The notes under the pieces: generated by a model
Told to the model about the DNA's origin: nothing
Databases searched by the model: none
The model's input: the letters and a program-made list of their open reading frames with translations, nothing else
Program-made: the position numbers and the translations under genes
NCBI GenBank assembly: GCA_947627355.1
Contig: CANQVX010000006.1
Coordinates: 1-64,000 of the forward strand
Origin: an uncultured Bacilli bacterium
Lineage (GTDB): Bacteria; Bacillota_I; Bacilli_A; RFN20; CAG-631
Length of the DNA: 64,000 nt
Direction of reading: 5' to 3'
Shown here: one piece after another, positions 20,264 through 63,400 of the stretch
Position numbering within the stretch: position 1 is the first letter of the stretch
Layout: each line of letters opens with the position of its first letter

Positions 20264-21685
20264 ATGGAAGAATTTTCTAATTATCTAACTAAAATAAAAC
20301 CTTTACTTAAAAGATTATTACAAATGCTTTGTGCTAAATATGCCTATGTATCTATTTTAGCAACTGATAGTGAAGGTAAGATTATTCAAGCTGGAGCTAA
20401 TGAAGTTCAAATAAAAGAACACCACATGCAAGAAAAAGGTTTTGTTGTGCGTGTTTATAATGGAAAGTTTTATAGTGAATATTCATTTAACAGCATTGAT
20501 GCTCAAAACATCAAAGAAATCTATGACAAGATTACTTTAGAACTAGATGTTCAAGAATTAATTGCTAAATCAATTTATTTAAAAGAAAGTGAATATCCAT
20601 TAATTCAAGAAGAAACTATTCAACAAAGTTTCCAAAAGAATATCAAGGATCGTGATTACACGATTAAAGAACTAGTTGATTATTGTAAGAAGATAGTTAA
20701 TACTGCTTTTGTTGAAAGCGAATATGTTATTTCTTGTCGTTGTAGCATTGAATATTTAACAGTTTCTAAGATGTTTTTATCATCTCAAAAAGATTTAGAA
20801 CAAGTTTATCCTTGGGTAAATGGTCGTTTATCAGTAATTGTTAACCGAAATGATACAACTAAATCAAACTTTGAAGCAACATCTAACATTCTAGTTAGTT
20901 CAGTCTTAAAAGAACTTGAAAAGAAAGAACATCGAGTTATTCAAGATGCTATTGCTTTATTAGATAGCACTAAACCTGTTCCTGGTGAATATGAAATCAT
21001 TACATCTCCTGATGTAACTGGTTTAATTGCTCATGAAGCTTTTGGCCATGGTGTTGAAATGGATATGTTTGTTAAAAATAGAGCCAAAGCTAAAGAATAC
21101 ATCAATAAGCAAGTGGCATCAGAAACCATTCAAATGCATGATGGGGCTAAACCTTTTGAAAATTGTTCATCATATTTCTTTGATGATGAAGGAATACTAG
21201 CAAAAGATACCATTATTATTAAAAATGGTATTTTACAAACCGGTATTGCTGATAGTTTATCAGCCCTTAAATTAAATATTGAACCAACCGGCAATGGGAA
21301 AAGAGAATCATATAAAAGAAAAGCCTATACTAGAATGACTAATACCTATTTTGAAAGAGGTCAAAGCATATTAGATGATATGGTATCAAAAGTTAAAAAA
21401 GGCATGCTTGTATGTAATGCTTATAGTGGCATGGAAGATCCTAAAAATTGGGGTTTACAAGCCATTGCTTTAATAGGTAGAGAAATCATTGATGGTAAAT
21501 ATACTGGAAAAATATATTCACCAATTTATATGAATGGTAATGTTCTAGATATCTTGAAATCAATATCAATGACAAGTCAAGATTTTCTTTTATTTGGTTC
21601 GGGATATTGTTGTAAAGGATATAAAGAAAAATCTAAAACTGCCGATGGTGGTCCTTATTTGAAAGCAAAGGTGAATATCGGATGA
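20264..21685 (+). CDS. tldD: TldD-type metalloprotease subunit
   Basis: The 473-residue catalytic half of a TldD/TldE protease. The zinc motif HEAFGHGVEMD lies near residue 256. In Escherichia coli the pair degrades unfolded peptides and matures microcin B17. Other family features are the GNGKRESYKRKAYTRMTN segment and a final GGPYLKAKV. The stop is a TGA that forms an ATGA overlap with the next gene, so the two subunits are translationally coupled. It sits oddly in a sugar operon. Confidence 0.88.
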   Translation: MEEFSNYLTKIKPLLKRLLQMLCAKYAYVSILATDSEGKIIQAGANEVQIKEHHMQEKGFVVRVYNGKFYSEYSFNSIDAQNIKEIYDKITLELDVQELIAKSIYLKESEYPLIQEETIQQSFQKNIKDRDYTIKELVDYCKKIVNTAFVESEYVISCRCSIEYLTVSKMFLSSQKDLEQVYPWVNGRLSVIVNRNDTTKSNFEATSNILVSSVLKELEKKEHRVIQDAIALLDSTKPVPGEYEIITSPDVTGLIAHEAFGHGVEMDMFVKNRAKAKEYINKQVASETIQMHDGAKPFENCSSYFFDDEGILAKDTIIIKNGILQTGIADSLSALKLNIEPTGNGKRESYKRKAYTRMTNTYFERGQSILDDMVSKVKKGMLVCNAYSGMEDPKNWGLQAIALIGREIIDGKYTGKIYSPIYMNGNVLDILKSISMTSQDFLLFGSGYCCKGYKEKSKTADGGPYLKAKVNIG

Positions 21686-23001
21686 TAGAAAGAATTAAAA
21701 CATTATTAGAGCAAAAAAAGACGCTCAAAGGGTGGAAAATTGATGAAAAAGTAATCGATAGTTATCAATTATTTTTTATCAAACAAGAACTAGATATGAA
21801 TCGTAGTGTAGAAACTAAAGAATATTTAGTAACCCTCTATAAAGAACATAAAGTTAAACAAGAAATCATGCAAGGAGAATATACAACTACTTTAACTCCT
21901 AATATGAGTGATGCTGAAATTAATGAAAAGTTAGATGAAGCCGAAGAATTAACTTGTTTATCTTTAAATCGACCATACAATCTAGTAAGTAAGCAACCTG
22001 AAAGAGGAAATGATAAAGAAGTATCATTTGCTGGACACACATTAAAAGAAGCCGCTTTTTTACTTGCTGATATTGTATTTGAAACTAACACCTATGCTAG
22101 TGGTTATTTAAATTCAACCGAAATCTTTGTTAATTTTGAAAAAAGACATTTTCTAAATTCCTTAGGTCATGAATTTGTTTATGCTAAAAGTTATGCTCAA
22201 CTAGATGTTGTTGTAACATGGCTAGAAGAAAATAAAAATGCTGATAATGAAGAAATAGAATTACATCAATTCTTTGAATTTGATTCTTTGAATCAAACTT
22301 ATATCAAAGGGGTGATAAATAACCTATTTGAAGAAGCAAAGAATAGATTTAAAGCAACTAATCATATTCCAATGGATAAGAATTGCAAGGTTATCTTAAA
22401 AAACGATGCTTTAAAAGAAATCTTTACATTCTTTGCAAATAAAGTAAAGGTTGATAATATCTTCAATCGTTATTCTGATTATAGAATCGGTGATTATATT
22501 CAAAAAAATAACGATTTGAGCGACAAATTAACAATTAGTCTAGAGCCATTACTACCAGGTTCTAGTAAAAATGCTTTATATGATGAAGATGGTATAACTT
22601 TACGGTCAATTCGAATAATTGATAAAGGTAAGGTATGTAATGTATGGGGCTCAGCTCAAAAAGCTCAATACATGAAATTACCTAACAATGGGCAATTTTC
22701 TAATTTAGTTGTTGAATGTGGACTAGCTAAAATGGAAGAACTAGTTAAAGAAAACTATCTAGAAATTGTATCTTTATCAGATATGAGTGTTGATTTGTTA
22801 ACTGGAGATTTTGGTAGTGAAATTAGATTTGCCTATTATCATACTAAAAAAGGCGAAATCATACCTATTACTGGTGGTTCTATTGTTGGTAATGCAATTG
22901 AATGCATTCAAAATGTTCGTTTAAGTGATGAAAGCCAACAATTAAATAATATTAAAATGCCAAAGTTTGCTATATTTGATAAAATTAGCATTGCTAAGTA
23001 A
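21682..23001 (+). CDS. tldE: TldE/PmbA-type protease partner subunit
   Basis: A 439-residue partner of TldD. It has the same overall fold but lacks the HExxxH zinc motif, as expected for TldE. LEPLLPGSSKNALYDEDGI and the C-terminal GGSIVGNAIECIQNV segment match the family. It overlaps tldD by 4 bases. No microcin- or RiPP-like precursor is visible nearby, so the substrate is unknown. Confidence 0.85.
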   Translation: MIERIKTLLEQKKTLKGWKIDEKVIDSYQLFFIKQELDMNRSVETKEYLVTLYKEHKVKQEIMQGEYTTTLTPNMSDAEINEKLDEAEELTCLSLNRPYNLVSKQPERGNDKEVSFAGHTLKEAAFLLADIVFETNTYASGYLNSTEIFVNFEKRHFLNSLGHEFVYAKSYAQLDVVVTWLEENKNADNEEIELHQFFEFDSLNQTYIKGVINNLFEEAKNRFKATNHIPMDKNCKVILKNDALKEIFTFFANKVKVDNIFNRYSDYRIGDYIQKNNDLSDKLTISLEPLLPGSSKNALYDEDGITLRSIRIIDKGKVCNVWGSAQKAQYMKLPNNGQFSNLVVECGLAKMEELVKENYLEIVSLSDMSVDLLTGDFGSEIRFAYYHTKKGEIIPITGGSIVGNAIECIQNVRLSDESQQLNNIKMPKFAIFDKISIAK

Positions 23002-25056: not shown

Positions 25057-25075
25057 TAGAAACAAATATTAATCT

Positions 25076-25111
25076 AAAAAGGCTGGTTTTATCGATAGAA
25101 TCAGTCTTTTT
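25076..25111 (+). terminator. Terminator of the galactoside operon
   Basis: Stem AAAAAGGCTGGTTT (25076-25089) with AATCAGTCTTTTT (from 25099), using G-T pairs, then a T run. The loop contains the recurring ATCGATAGAATC motif. Confidence 0.7.
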
Positions 25112-25134
25112 ATAATAATTTAAATCATTTGTTA

Positions 25135-25188
25135 TTACCAAAAAATGGTAAAAATAAAATCATTAAAAAAAGTAGAAATACCTATAAT
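25135..25188 (+). promoter_or_regulatory. Inverted repeat and -10 box upstream of the clpC-like gene
   Basis: TTACCA-AAAAA-TGGTAA (25135-25151) is a perfect inverted repeat, about 30 bases before a -10 TATAAT (25183-25188). No CtsR-type heptad repeat or CIRCE element is visible, so control may differ from that of Bacillus clpC. Confidence 0.4.
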
Positions 25189-25247
25189 ATTTATAGTAAA
25201 AAAATAATATTATTGAGTAGTGATAGCAAATTGGAAGGTGATAACAA

Positions 25248-27350
25248 ATGCTTAGTAGATTTAATGAAAAAGCCCAACGTGCCATAGCCCTAGCAGAAAG
25301 TCTTGCTTTTGATTTTGGTCATAACAGTGTTGGAACAGAACATTTATTATTAGCTTTATTAAAGATAAAAGATTGTAAACTTAAAACAATTTTAGAATCT
25401 TATCATGTAAATGCCACAATATATCAAGAAGAACTTATTGAACTATTTGGTAAAAAGCCAACTCAACCATTTTATATGGAATATACCATTGCCTTAAAAA
25501 ATCTAATTGAAGATGCTTTGATTGCTAGTAAAAGAAAACAAGAAGAAAAAGTAAGCCTTGAAACACTTAGTATCTCACTTTTAGAAATGGAAGAAAATAT
25601 TGCCCTAGAAATACTAAAAAAGTTGAATGTACCGATAAAAAATGCAGTTGAAGAGCTTAAAAAACAATCAAGAAAACATAGTGAATTAGATAATATTGCT
25701 GATTTAATCAATCTAAATAACAAGGCTTTAAAACAAGTTCCTATTTTAATTGAAAGAGATAAAGAATTAAATTTATTATTTGAAGCATTGCTTAGAAAAC
25801 AAAAACCAAATGCGATATTAATTGGTGAACCCGGGGTTGGTAAAACTGCTATTGTTGAATATTTTGCTCATCTAATTAACTTAGGAAAAGTTCCTGATAA
25901 ATTAAAAGATAAAACTATATATGAAATTGATATTTCAGGAATAATTGCCGGAACTAAATATCGTGGTGAATTTGAAGAAAAATTAAAAAAGATAATCAAG
26001 AAAGTAAAAGAAGATGAAAATGCCATCTTATTTATCGATGAAATACATAACATTATTGGTGCTGGTGGTGCTGAAGGAGCAATTGATGCTAGTAATATCT
26101 TAAAACCATATTTATCACGTGGTGAAATTGTTTGTATTGGTGCTACAACCTATGATGAATATGTAAAAATATTTGAAAAAGAAAAAGCCTTAGAAAGAAG
26201 ATTTCAAGTTGTTAAAATTGAAGAACCTTCAATTAGCCAAACCTTACATATCTTAAAAGAAGTCAAGTCACAATTTGAAACATTCCATAATCTAAAAATA
26301 AGTGATGAAATCATAAAAAAGATTATCAATTACTGTAACTTATATGTAAATGAGCGTTATTTTCCAGATAAAGCGATTGATGTCTTAGATATTTCAAGTG
26401 TTAGAGCTAATAATAGAAATCAAAAAGAATTAGAAGAAAAAGATATCATAGAAGTTATTGAAGATTTATTTAAAGTTAAAATTGAAAAAGGTAATAAGGC
26501 TAAAGCCCTAGAAAAAAGTTTGAACCAAATTTTAATTGGCCAAAAGCCAGCAATCGCAAAAATTGTCGAGCAAATCGAATATATTGAGATGGGATTGAAT
26601 GATGAAAATAGACCTTTAGGGGTGTTTTTGTTTGTTGGCCCAACAGGTGTTGGGAAAACAGAAACAGCTAAACAAATAGCCATTAAATATTTCGGTAATA
26701 AAGATAAATACGTTAAATTAGATATGTCTGAGTATAGTGAACCAAGTTCAGTTACTAAATTAATTGGTTCACCACCAGGCTATGTAGGCTTTGAAAGACA
26801 AAGTTTATTGGTTGACCATATTCGAAAAAATCCCCATTCTGTCGTAGTTTTAGATGAAGTAGAAAAGGCTCATAGAGATGTTTTAGATATCTTTTTAAGT
26901 GTTTTTGATGAAGGCTATTTCTATGATTCAAATAAGAAAAAAATTGATTTTAGAAACACTATTATCATCATGACGTCTAATCTTGGTTTTAGTGAAACGA
27001 TGTTTCATAAAAACAAAATAGGCTATGTAAATAACCAATATAACAAAGAAGATGTTGACATAGTTATAAGCAATCACTTCAGGCCGGAATTTCTAAATAG
27101 AATCGATTCTATCGTCAATTTTGACGTTTTAAGTGAAGAAACTTGTAAACAATTAGCTAAAGATTATTTAAATGAATATGCTAGAAAAGTAAACTATGAA
27201 ATAGCAACTATAGATGAAATGGTATCAGAAATAGCTAAAGATAAAGAAAGTAAAAACTATGGTGCTAGAGGGATAAAAAGACTAGCTAAACAAAAATTAA
27301 TTAAACAAATCAAACAAAACCATAAAATAAAAGATAATTCTCGTGTTTAA
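25248..27350 (+). CDS. ClpC/ClpA-like AAA+ chaperone, M-domain absent
   Basis: A 700-residue Hsp100 unfoldase with two ATPase modules. The Clp N-domain (about 1-145) opens with FNEKAQRAIALAE and GTEHLLLALLK. NBD1 has GEPGVGKTA (about 192) and LFIDEIHNI (about 262); NBD2 has GPTGVGKTE (about 463) and VVLDEVEKAH (about 531). The linker runs straight from the first to the second module, so the coiled-coil M-domain of ClpC (needed for MecA control) is missing, as in ClpA. The ClpP-docking loop position reads KIGYVNN, where ClpC normally has VGF. ClpP is not in this window. AAGGTGAT precedes the ATG. Confidence 0.88.
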   Translation: MLSRFNEKAQRAIALAESLAFDFGHNSVGTEHLLLALLKIKDCKLKTILESYHVNATIYQEELIELFGKKPTQPFYMEYTIALKNLIEDALIASKRKQEEKVSLETLSISLLEMEENIALEILKKLNVPIKNAVEELKKQSRKHSELDNIADLINLNNKALKQVPILIERDKELNLLFEALLRKQKPNAILIGEPGVGKTAIVEYFAHLINLGKVPDKLKDKTIYEIDISGIIAGTKYRGEFEEKLKKIIKKVKEDENAILFIDEIHNIIGAGGAEGAIDASNILKPYLSRGEIVCIGATTYDEYVKIFEKEKALERRFQVVKIEEPSISQTLHILKEVKSQFETFHNLKISDEIIKKIINYCNLYVNERYFPDKAIDVLDISSVRANNRNQKELEEKDIIEVIEDLFKVKIEKGNKAKALEKSLNQILIGQKPAIAKIVEQIEYIEMGLNDENRPLGVFLFVGPTGVGKTETAKQIAIKYFGNKDKYVKLDMSEYSEPSSVTKLIGSPPGYVGFERQSLLVDHIRKNPHSVVVLDEVEKAHRDVLDIFLSVFDEGYFYDSNKKKIDFRNTIIIMTSNLGFSETMFHKNKIGYVNNQYNKEDVDIVISNHFRPEFLNRIDSIVNFDVLSEETCKQLAKDYLNEYARKVNYEIATIDEMVSEIAKDKESKNYGARGIKRLAKQKLIKQIKQNHKIKDNSRV

Positions 27351-27394: not shown

Positions 27395-27793
27395 ATGAAA
27401 CAAAAAAGTATTATTATGGCTACATTTATATTTATTGGGGGTTTTATACCTTTAAAAGGCACTATTCAAAACGAAAGAAATGTTTATTATCAGCTCTATG
27501 CTAAAAGCACAGAATCATATCTTGAATGTAACGAAATCAAAAAAGAAATTTTAAGGGTTTATGATAGCCTACCGATTTATAAATTTAATGACGTAAAAAA
27601 GCAACTAAAAAACCATCTAAAAGACTTTGAATTTAGTGGTGTAAATTCCGTCAATTTTGATGATAAAAATCTAGCCTTAAATGTCTATTTAGATGATTCT
27701 AATTGTCTTGTTATGAAAGGCTATTTATATGAAGTCGAAGCAAACCAAAATATTTTAAATAAAAAATATTTTATAGAGCAAATTTTTCACTAA
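27395..27793 (+). CDS. Secreted or membrane-anchored small protein, unknown
   Basis: A 132-residue protein with an N-terminal hydrophobic segment (about 5-22) after MKQKS, likely a signal peptide or anchor. The rest is charged, with two cysteines (about 45 and 109). I do not recognise a family. AAGGAGTG precedes the ATG. It lies 44 bases after the clpC-like gene and before a terminator, so it may be read from the same transcript. Confidence 0.6.
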   Translation: MKQKSIIMATFIFIGGFIPLKGTIQNERNVYYQLYAKSTESYLECNEIKKEILRVYDSLPIYKFNDVKKQLKNHLKDFEFSGVNSVNFDDKNLALNVYLDDSNCLVMKGYLYEVEANQNILNKKYFIEQIFH

Positions 27794-60314: not shown

Positions 60315-60358
60315 ATCGAATGCGTGAAAGAAAATAAAAAAAGAAAGGTTTGTGTATT

Positions 60359-63300
60359 ATGTCAAACAAAAAATCAAAAGCTAAACAGTTTTTCTTGTTT
60401 TGCTTCTTACTTTCATTTGTTGGATGTTCAACTGTTGATAATAGAATTGATTCAACTTCATCTAGCAGATTTGATTCAACAACTAATTTATTAGGTGAAA
60501 TTAGTTCTAGCGATTCTACTTCTAGTAAAGATAGTTCTAGTGTTAATTCTAGTAGTCAAAATTCTAGTAGTACAACAACTCAAACATCTATTTCTTCAAA
60601 TGAACAATCAGCAAGTATTAGTAAAGAATCAAGTAGTAGTTCTACTGCTCAATCATCTTCTAGCAGTACAACTCAATCTTCTAGTACAACAACTAGTTCG
60701 TCGTCAAGTAGCAGTACAACTACCCAATCGTCAAGTAGTAGTTCAACCCAATCATCAAGCAGTAGTAATGTTCAAACATCTACTAGTTCTAGTACTCAAC
60801 AATCTAGTAGTAGTACAACAACTCAACAATCAAGTAGTTCAACCCAATCATCAAGCAGCAGTAACGTTCAAACATCTACTAGTTCAAGTTCAAGTACTCA
60901 ACAATCATCAAGCAGTTCTACTCTAACTAGTTCAGATGTTCAAACATCTTCAAGTAGTAGTACTTCTCAATCTTCTAGTAGTTCTTCATCTAGCAGTCAA
61001 GATAGTACAACTCCATCTGTAGATAGTTCTAGTAGTTCTTCTTCACCAGTAGTTACTACTTATGTTGTTACATTTAATGCTAATGGTGGTGAATTTGATA
61101 ACAAATCACAATCTTATCAAATACAAGTAAATAAAAATGAAACAATTAATATAGATAGTGTTAAAAAGCCTACTAAGGCAGGTCATGCATTCAATCAATG
61201 GTCAAGAGTAAACAATGGCTTTGATTATTGGAATTTTGAAACTGATGTTGTTACTAGTGACTTAGATTTATATGCCACTTGGACACCTAATAAATACCAA
61301 GTAAATATCACTAATGAAAACAATACGGCCGGAACAGTTACTGGAAATGGTGATTATGATTATGGAACAATGGTTACATTAACAGCAACTGCTAATGATG
61401 GTTATCATTTTGTTGGTTGGTATCAAGCTGACGCTTTAAAATCAACTGATACAACTTATAAATTTGCTTTATTAGATTCAATTACTTTAGTTGCTAAATG
61501 GGATGTAAATGAATATACCATTAATTTAGATGCTGGAGCAGGCGCTACAGTTAGCAATTCAACATATAAGGTTAAATATAACGCTAGTTATCAATTACCT
61601 GTTGCAGTTAAAACAGGATATGCTTTTGATGGCTGGTATTATCAAAATAACAAATTAACCGATGCTATTGGACAAAGCATCTTACCATATACTTATACAT
61701 CAAATATTAATGTAGAAGCTAGATTCATAGCTAATAAATATACTTATACATTTAAGAATTATGATGATAGTATAATTTCTTCAACCACCGCTGATTATGG
61801 TTCAACAATTGTTTATCCAACTAATAATCCTACTTATGATGATAATGATTATGAATACACATTTACTGGTTGGAATCCTAGTGATCTAAAAGTTTTAACT
61901 GAAAATGTTGATATCAAAGCAACATATTCAAGAAAACTAAAAGTTCATAACAAAGTTATAAATATGTTATCTGATTCACTTGGAAATAATCGTGCTGTTT
62001 ATATGAATGCTGTTTTAGAAGGCGAAGCTAATCTAACAACAGACTTAAAATTCCAAATTGATAAAGATGTTTTCAACAGTCTATTACATAAAGATGAATT
62101 AACTAATGAAGAAAGACAAAATTTATCGATAGAATCATTATTAAAATCAGCAACTTTACAAGCATCAGTTACTTATAAAGAGGACACTTTCTATCTAGAA
62201 GTAACTCCAACTGATACTTATGTTTCAGTATTTGGAAAAGTCTATACCTTAAACCTACTTAAAACATATAATACTTTACTTCAAGTTTTACCTAAAGATG
62301 TCTTTGATGTAGCAAGTTTTCTTGATAACTTCATTGCTAGTGATGTTGAAGCTAAATCAGCAACTCTAGTAGAAGAAGGAAATAAAACCACTTTAACTGC
62401 CATAGTTAGAAATGATTATCAAGAAGGCACTGGTGAAGTCAATGGAAATACTAATCCATTCTATGGAAAAGACTTACAATGCAGTGTTATCTTTAATAAA
62501 GAAAATGGAATTTATTCGATAGAATCAGCAGAATTAAAGATTCTATATGAAAAGATTACTGTTACAACTAATAATGGTGAAGGTTTTGTTTGTGATATAT
62601 CACATGACAACACATTAGATTATTTTGATCAATTACTTAACTTTGCAAAAGCTATTTCAAATACTGCTCAAATGAAAAATTTCCATATAACAGGAAATCT
62701 TGATATATCACTTTTAGGAAATAAAAGAAGCACATTTGATGTAAAACTTTCAATCAATGAAAAGAATCAAGTATTTGCTTCAATTTATTTAAGTTTGAAA
62801 TGTGATACATTAAAACAATTATTTAAAAATGACACAGATCTTTATCTATACTATGATGGTTCAAAAGAAATGCTTTATGCTAAAAGAGTAACTTTTACAA
62901 CTGAAGGCGTAATTAACAAAAAGCATTATCAACAAGCAGATTATCAAACATGGACCACAGAAAAATTTAAAGAAGACATAATGAACAATATCTTTTGGTT
63001 AATTAATGCATCAGACACTGTTACTAAGAATGCCGGAAGCACCACAATGAGCGTTGATTATAAGAATGTTTTATCTTCTGTTGCAACTAACGAAAACACC
63101 TTAACAATAACATTAAACAAAGATGCAATTACAATGGGTGGTGGAAGTATAAGTTTTGCTATCACTCAAAATATTGTAATAAGTGTTTCAAAAACCACTG
63201 ATGATTATTTAGATTCATTTGGGTTAACAACTGGCTTAGGACTTTCTGGACTTGATGCAATCAGTGTTAACATTAACAATACTAAACTTGTCGATCGCGG

Positions 63301-63400
63301 GGTTTCATTAAAAGTTGATGAAATCATTGCTGGACTAGAAGATAAAGTTGATATATATAAAGATGCCGGTTTATACATTGGTCAAAAGGTAAAAGTATAG
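60359..63400 (+). CDS. Serine-rich surface lipoprotein with InlB-type repeats
   Basis: A 1013-residue protein. Signal peptide with lipobox SFVGC (Cys 23). Residues about 35-230 are a low-complexity stalk of Ser, Thr and Gln. About 235-530 holds roughly four Listeria-Bacteroides (InlB B/Flg_new) repeats, with GHAFNQWSRV, GYHFVGWYQ, GYAFDGWYYQ and YEYTFTGWNP marking them. The C-terminal 480 residues are an unrecognised domain with alternating strands (KVHNKVINMLSDSLGNNRAV at its start). It looks like a stalked adhesin or binding protein. The ATG at 60359 follows AGAAAGG; a perfect promoter suggests high expression. Confidence 0.85.
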   Translation: MSNKKSKAKQFFLFCFLLSFVGCSTVDNRIDSTSSSRFDSTTNLLGEISSSDSTSSKDSSSVNSSSQNSSSTTTQTSISSNEQSASISKESSSSSTAQSSSSSTTQSSSTTTSSSSSSSTTTQSSSSSSTQSSSSSNVQTSTSSSTQQSSSSTTTQQSSSSTQSSSSSNVQTSTSSSSSTQQSSSSSTLTSSDVQTSSSSSTSQSSSSSSSSSQDSTTPSVDSSSSSSSPVVTTYVVTFNANGGEFDNKSQSYQIQVNKNETINIDSVKKPTKAGHAFNQWSRVNNGFDYWNFETDVVTSDLDLYATWTPNKYQVNITNENNTAGTVTGNGDYDYGTMVTLTATANDGYHFVGWYQADALKSTDTTYKFALLDSITLVAKWDVNEYTINLDAGAGATVSNSTYKVKYNASYQLPVAVKTGYAFDGWYYQNNKLTDAIGQSILPYTYTSNINVEARFIANKYTYTFKNYDDSIISSTTADYGSTIVYPTNNPTYDDNDYEYTFTGWNPSDLKVLTENVDIKATYSRKLKVHNKVINMLSDSLGNNRAVYMNAVLEGEANLTTDLKFQIDKDVFNSLLHKDELTNEERQNLSIESLLKSATLQASVTYKEDTFYLEVTPTDTYVSVFGKVYTLNLLKTYNTLLQVLPKDVFDVASFLDNFIASDVEAKSATLVEEGNKTTLTAIVRNDYQEGTGEVNGNTNPFYGKDLQCSVIFNKENGIYSIESAELKILYEKITVTTNNGEGFVCDISHDNTLDYFDQLLNFAKAISNTAQMKNFHITGNLDISLLGNKRSTFDVKLSINEKNQVFASIYLSLKCDTLKQLFKNDTDLYLYYDGSKEMLYAKRVTFTTEGVINKKHYQQADYQTWTTEKFKEDIMNNIFWLINASDTVTKNAGSTTMSVDYKNVLSSVATNENTLTITLNKDAITMGGGSISFAITQNIVISVSKTTDDYLDSFGLTTGLGLSGLDAISVNINNTKLVDRGVSLKVDEIIAGLEDKVDIYKDAGLYIGQKVKV
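60741..60888 (+). repeat. 96-base-period repeat in the serine-rich stalk
   Basis: A block of about 52 bases starting GTTCAACCCAATCATCAAGC recurs at 60741-60792 and 60837-60888 with two substitutions, both silent. Flanking shorter Ser/Thr/Gln codon repeats could allow slippage and length change of the stalk. Confidence 0.7.

Follow-up and report, generated by a model that had tools for sequence, protein, structure and literature searches.

The window analysed here, the whole stretch of 64,000 nucleotides from an uncultured Bacilli bacterium, carries on its forward strand a gene for a predicted Clp-type AAA+ unfoldase, whose open reading frame begins with an ATG behind GGAAGGTGA (Table 1). Its 5' neighbours are TldD/TldE-type genes, a GDPD gene and an aldose-epimerase gene, while a 132-aa protein and an oligopeptide transporter are encoded on the 3' side. 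The hairpin ahead of the gene has a folding energy of -17 kcal/mol (z -6.7), and none of 200 shuffled sequences was equally stable. The presence of such a strong terminator-like hairpin suggests that the unfoldase gene forms its own transcription unit. An earlier reading of the sequence alone (the sequence-only reading) had noted that no CtsR-type site lies upstream, and a pattern scan agrees. With a heptad pattern of the CtsR type, and with three mismatches allowed in counted matches, the window shows four matches at three mismatches against a chance expectation of 7.1, and none within 25057-25247. The gene also differs from clpC of B. subtilis and S. aureus in not being surrounded by a ctsR-type operon. 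Control by HrcA has been considered and rejected, since the CIRCE pattern is absent from the window.

Some other genes of the window can be described briefly. The TldD/TldE-type metallopeptidase pair (20264-23001) lies a short distance upstream of the unfoldase gene. The 132-aa protein just 3' of it (27395-27793) has no Pfam match, and open reading frames resembling it also lie 3' of the unfoldase gene at three further loci (L014, L015, and L076). A surface-type protein of 1016 aa with a long Ser-rich stretch is encoded at 60350-63400.

Table 1. Features at the unfoldase locus, in positions of the window.
Feature	Coordinates	Strand	Basis or remark
Terminator-like hairpin flanked by A/T runs, separating the aldose-epimerase and unfoldase genes	25075..25112	+	
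Ribosome-binding-like GGAAGGTGA	25233..25241	+	sequence
Predicted M-domain-less ClpC-type AAA+ unfoldase, 700 aa	25248..27350	+	
N-domain (Clp_N), residues ~1-145	25248..25682	+	Pfam PF02861 at 16-65
D1 ATPase module (Walker A GEPGVGKT 193-200, Walker B FIDE, RRF)	25737..26447	+	
D1-D2 junction, residues 372-430, no space for an M-domain	26361..26537	+	
D2 ATPase module and D2-small domain	26610..27317	+	motifs, Pfam
Putative ClpP-docking tripeptide I591-G592-Y593	27018..27026	+	aligned with ClpA IGL and the relatives' [MLI]G[YF]

The domain content of the protein is that of a double-ring Clp ATPase. Four Pfam families are found (Clp_N, AAA, AAA_lid_9, and AAA_2), and the D2-small model scores 21.1 bits when the protein is scanned, a little short of its cut-off of 21.9, and 24.1 bits when the genome is scanned. 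Residues 1-137 align with the N-domain of ClpC. Both modules have Walker A, Walker B, and arginine-finger motifs, and D2 also has a pore loop and sensor 2 (Walker A GPTGVGKT at 464-471, pore loop GYVG at 511-514, Walker B LDE, NR, and GAR). A Clp_N domain followed by two AAA+ modules with Walker motifs is what is expected of a ClpC. A ClpE-type N-terminal zinc finger has also been looked for, and no zinc-binding Pfam family matched at E values up to 0.001.

The coiled-coil M-domain in D1, which is likewise expected of a ClpC, is missing. The sequence-only reading had described the two ATPase modules as joined without it, and the length of the junction bears this out. The stretch from PDKAID to the GQ of D2 measures 61 residues in the unfoldase and its three family relatives and 70 in E. 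coli ClpA, compared with 111-125 in nine M-domain-bearing ClpCs of the same class (family f17). In the alignment, the ClpB of the same genome has a long insert where the unfoldase has no M-domain. AlphaFold2, run on the window protein and one relative, gave a mean pLDDT of 41.7 and a pTM of 0.30, and bears neither way on a hidden M-domain. Junction length and alignment together confirm, at the level of sequence, the absence of the M-domain, a state typical of ClpA. ClpB has a long M-domain and no ClpP loop, and the unfoldase fits neither description; the genome has a separate ClpB. A literature search that covered few subscription journals returned no report of a natural ClpC without an M-domain, or of a ClpC that keeps its docking loop although D2 is dead.

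The docking loop had been read as KIGYVNN instead of one with VGF or IGF, and this reading also stands. The loop lies at the canonical position, where it aligns with KSIGLIH of E. coli ClpA, and a search of the alignment for a canonical loop at another place found none. An LGF at residues 579-581 has been rejected as a candidate; it comes immediately after the TSN of sensor 1, and its counterpart in the ClpB of the same genome, a protein that has no ClpP tripeptide, is TSNLGS. In the seven further genomes of the order whose D2 is intact, the tripeptide is MGY, LGY, IGY, MGY, MGF, IGF, and LGF, and the form of the loop is kept in all eight when the window is included. Elsewhere in the class, the five M-domain-less proteins of family f20 read VGF or LGF (5/5), and a protein of family f23 (G256) has IGY as well. 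The hydrophobic-Gly-aromatic loop expected in the D2 of a ClpC is therefore present, with a Tyr that falls outside the strict F/L consensus.

The docking consensus is given as (L/I/V)-G-(F/L) in PMC8745299, and PMC12521514 describes PhiGF loops that dock ClpC onto ClpP, the tripeptide being AGF in S. aureus ClpC. Judged from the alignment, Tyr for Phe is a small departure, common to the window's family and f7. The exchange is possibly not harmless, because the ClpX variants I268L and F270L bind ClpP poorly according to PMC7112951. No reported test of an F-to-Y exchange in the docking tripeptide has been found in the literature.

The sequence-only reading had gone further and suggested that the protein may use a different or altered contact with ClpP. 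Its genome (1.57 Mb) has three ClpP genes and is 93% complete, so that single absences in this genome alone are weak evidence. The ClpP on contig C12, which answers the question of a clpP elsewhere in the genome, is of the housekeeping type: it scores 272.6 bits, is above the cut-off of NF001368, and reaches 297.8 bits against TIGR00493, just below the cut-off of 308.6. Its Ser-His-Asp triad is intact and most pocket positions are conserved. The ClpPs on contigs C22 and C1 have been rejected as main partners because of their lower scores (196.5 and 156.7 bits against 272.6) and their mobile-element surroundings. The one on C22 (L009:5184-5798) is the third ClpP and lies amid integrase-like, SSB-like, and repressor-like genes. 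The ClpP-like gene on C1 (L010:4035-6249) overlaps a 554-aa open reading frame that has no Pfam match and ends in a C-terminal VGFGFEGGEF; both adjoin a conjugative coupling protein, as in a mobile element with its own ClpP.

Across the order, the unfoldase is present in 22 of 58 genomes. A ClpP above 200 bits is found in 20 of these 22 and in none of the 36 genomes that lack the unfoldase (Fisher p 1e-13, uncorrected for kinship). Lesser ClpP matches occur in four unfoldase-free genomes (G048, 190.5 and 157.7 bits; G051, 149.5; G017, 26.4; G010, 20.1). The two exceptions have a decayed unfoldase and no housekeeping ClpP (G018, truncated and decayed, and G038, of family f3), and three f3 genomes have neither protein. 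The canonical position of IGY, the [MLI]G[YF] loops of the relatives, and the triad-intact ClpP in the genome do not support a different contact in the form suggested, and the relatives' loops and the co-occurrence with housekeeping ClpP do not support a lost one. The sequences indicate a contact that is at most re-tuned, with Tyr for Phe in the loop beside His82 for Phe/Tyr in ClpP in the window's genus.

The same observations bear on the idea that the protein functions independently of ClpP, unfolding or disaggregating proteins in the manner of ClpB or the ClpIb subtype. Such a role would agree with a tripeptide outside the consensus published in PMC8745299 and with the complete loss of the loop in related f3 proteins (13/13). 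The window's family retains the loop, whereas f3 illustrates the outcome of its loss, and the co-occurrence with ClpP and the presence of another ClpB in the genome make this role very improbable.

Whether loop and pocket have changed together can be judged from a comparison of 48 ClpP rows in E. coli mature numbering. Position 114, which along with further positions we take to be a pocket residue, is Leu in all 36 rows outside f3, including the ClpP of the window's genome. Eight rows had been dropped as mobile-type or second copies: the C4 sequence of G046 (that genome's top match), second copies in G056, G002, and G023, the two ClpPs on C22 and C1, and those of G048 and G051. Positions 60, 62, and 82 are named as pocket positions in PMC11005422, where 82 is described as key together with Tyr62 in B. 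subtilis ClpP. Where the unfoldase has a GY loop, position 82 is His (window and G001), Tyr (G002 and G003), or Ser (G009); in three f4 genomes with GF loops, it is Phe, Leu, and Phe. This distribution is suggestive of a match between Tyr593 and a polar residue at position 82, which would make the pair mutually specific. The changes that are independent are very few, Tyr82 is paired with IGF loops in f14, and Leu82 goes with IGY in G256. Mutual specificity is considered unlikely.

The other Clp ATPases and their regulators have been searched for in 58 genomes of the order, with 14 named genomes as control. ClpX is above the cut-off in none of the 58, compared with 10 of the 14 controls. In the window's genome, its best score is 29.6 bits; of 38 first-look candidates there, 25 were scored, and none of these was a ClpX. 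A D2-small domain occurs in just two proteins of this genome, the unfoldase and ClpB, and from its gene content the unfoldase appears to be the only Clp motor of this genome able to feed ClpP. The ClpB (contig C19, L007:326-2464) has 712 aa and no N-domain, and similar open reading frames are present in relatives (708 aa in G001 and 705 aa in G002). The view that the unfoldase escapes control by MecA is supported by the absence of MecA from all 58 genomes, with B. subtilis and L. lactis positive in the control. CtsR is likewise found in none of the 58, and its control is positive in L. lactis only and not in B. subtilis. The McsB model (PF00217) matches none of the 58 genomes and none of the 14 controls either, so it is uninformative.

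Two lines of descent have been considered, since the sequence-only reading had called the enzyme ClpA-like. In shape this holds, given the missing M-domain and a junction close in length to that of ClpA; by descent it is not favoured. A true ClpA, inherited or acquired by gene transfer and working with a ClpS-type adaptor, would explain why the top NCBIfam model is ClpA (TIGR02639), which matches over the full length. The score of 602.9 bits lies below the cut-off of 993.15, and no NCBIfam model reaches its own cut-off. Among proteins of solved structure, the top match is S. aureus ClpC with 513.7 bits, and the highest-scoring ClpA, that of E. coli, has 426.6.

A tree of the N-domain and D1 has been built from 42 rows, namely 38 of 54 (53 loci plus E. 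coli ClpA) and four references; near-copies, truncated rows, and some divergent rows were left out. The 32 M-domain-less members of the class fall into a single clade (96/92), which adjoins the M-domain ClpCs of f17 (99/97); B. subtilis and S. aureus ClpC come next (97/87), and E. coli ClpA falls outside on a long branch. This topology speaks for a single loss of the M-domain in the ClpC line. An AU test of the M-domain-less proteins and E. coli ClpA as one clade gives p-AU 0.17, and the grouping is not rejected. On the 3' side of the unfoldase gene in relatives, dusB is found in two f4 genomes (G013 and G023, above the cut-off) and an IspD-like gene in one f7 genome (G009, 177.3 bits, cut-off 181.3). 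These neighbours fit a clpC, since ispD and dusB presumably flank clpC in B. subtilis. Taken together, the clade most likely descends from ClpC by loss of the M-domain, and a true ClpA is quite improbable.

Based on these observations, we propose, with a probability of roughly three in four, that the unfoldase is an unbraked ClpC-type partner of ClpP, from a clade that is likely derived from ClpC and has lost the M-domain. Its motifs suggest that it works as a ClpC or ClpA does with ClpP, and without the M-domain it would not count as a canonical ClpC. Hexamers would form without a resting state held by the M-domain, and substrates would be chosen through the N-domain or through adaptors not known. 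D1 and D2 would unfold the substrates, which would enter ClpP by way of six IGY loops bound in its pockets, and the unfoldase would be the sole Clp ATPase serving ClpP in the cell. The M-domain holds ClpC inactive, and PMC5699869 reports that its deletion leaves S. aureus ClpC as active as it is with MecA. By analogy, a natural protein without the M-domain, in a lineage free of MecA, would be expected to be active in the absence of this adaptor. The same source describes the ClpC M-domain point mutant F436A as toxic in B. subtilis. Because of this toxicity, some other control would be needed, and none has been found; expression, substrate choice, or an unknown adaptor might replace MecA and the M-domain. 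A ClpC-type motor of this kind as the only partner of ClpP raises the question of how an unbraked AAA+ protease stays safe.

The protein can be compared with several known systems. With ClpC of B. subtilis and S. aureus it shares the ClpC-type N-domain, the two AAA+ modules, the PhiG-aromatic loop in D2, and ClpP as a likely partner; it differs in the missing M-domain, in belonging to an order without MecA and CtsR, and in having IGY rather than VGF or AGF. With E. coli ClpA it shares the M-domain-less form, a junction of 61 compared with 70 residues, and the position of the docking loop, whereas ClpA lies outside the clade in the tree (AU p 0.17) and the unfoldase scores below the ClpA cut-off. 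The ClpI proteins of Actinomycetota are described in PMC10149685 as M-domain-bearing double-ring unfoldases in which docking loops are present or absent within one group, as they are among the present relatives. ClpI has, according to that description, an M-domain of ClpC length and intact ATPase modules, whereas the present proteins have no M-domain and, in some of them, D2 is dead. A further parallel is S. aureus ClpC with an engineered M-domain deletion and MecA-free activity (PMC5699869), a laboratory construct, whereas the M-domain-less state described here is natural and widespread.

The fate of D2 varies among the relatives. A survey of the class compared 53 loci, namely 22 from the order, 18 from a set of 27 new class loci, and 13 that were fetched; it omits nine of the 18 f17 loci, and the motif count also leaves out G092, which is cut by a contig end. 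Three groups can be distinguished. The first consists of 13 M-domain-less proteins of f1, f4, f7, and f20, including that of the window. Both Walker pairs, the pore loop, and the tripeptide are present in 13/13 each, the D2 arginine in 12/13, and GAR in 11/13, and ClpX is above the cut-off in one of the 13 genomes (G194). The second group comprises 12 proteins of f10, f12, f14, and f23 and of genome G251 (L102, L135, L136, L138, and L140-L147, with L139 cut off). They have an intact D1, and the Walker A and B motifs of D2 are lost in all (0/12 each). The GYVG pore loop and the tripeptide are nevertheless kept in 12/12 each, compared with 0.83 expected in shuffled segments. ClpP is present in all 12 genomes; ClpX is above the cut-off in ten, falls just short of it in G269 (a fragment at the edge of a contig), and was not detected in G251.

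The third group consists of 13 f3 proteins (L020-L029 and L031-L033) with an intact D1. Pore loop and tripeptide are both missing (0/13 each), and D2 retains Walker A in 11 of the 13 and Walker B in four. ClpP is present in 12 of the 13 f3 genomes with the unfoldase. All 12 of these ClpPs have Tyr at position 114, where the remaining 36 rows have Leu. Their position 82 is occupied by Ile, Asn, Ser, Ala, Lys, or His, and their N-terminal hairpin region is also different. Ser97 and His122 are unchanged, and in seven of the 12 Asn takes the place of Asp171. Since f3 is one clade, the loss of the loop and the change in ClpP represent one event, not twelve.

A tentative reading of this series, held at somewhat less than even odds, is that, once the M-domain had been lost, the two functions of the second ring were separated in the clade, with the window protein as an intact in-between state. 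The D2 of f10, f12, f14, f23, and G251 would be a dead ATPase that persists as an adaptor for docking and for the pore, and D1 alone would drive ClpC-ClpP in these families. In f3, D2 would first have lost its docking and pore loops; ClpP stayed, and its docking surface, and in many cases the catalytic Asp as well, would have changed. The window's pair would carry matched small changes (Phe to Tyr in the loop and a change to His at ClpP 82), and its unfoldase, in a lineage that lacks ClpX, would be the sole motor for ClpP. The relatives provide a natural series with separate losses of docking and of ATP hydrolysis by D2, so that the role of each could be tested with natural proteins.

Some proteins run counter to a simple rule. 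The protein of G233 (f25) has lost the tripeptide and the D2 motifs, and its genome has a ClpP with Leu114. Two f27 proteins (G197 and G264) have D2 motifs and no tripeptide and occur beside a divergent ClpP. At these last two loci (L084 in G264 and L085 in G197), the ClpP directly adjoins the divergent ClpC-type protein and scores ~122 bits, and the two genes are possibly a separate pair.
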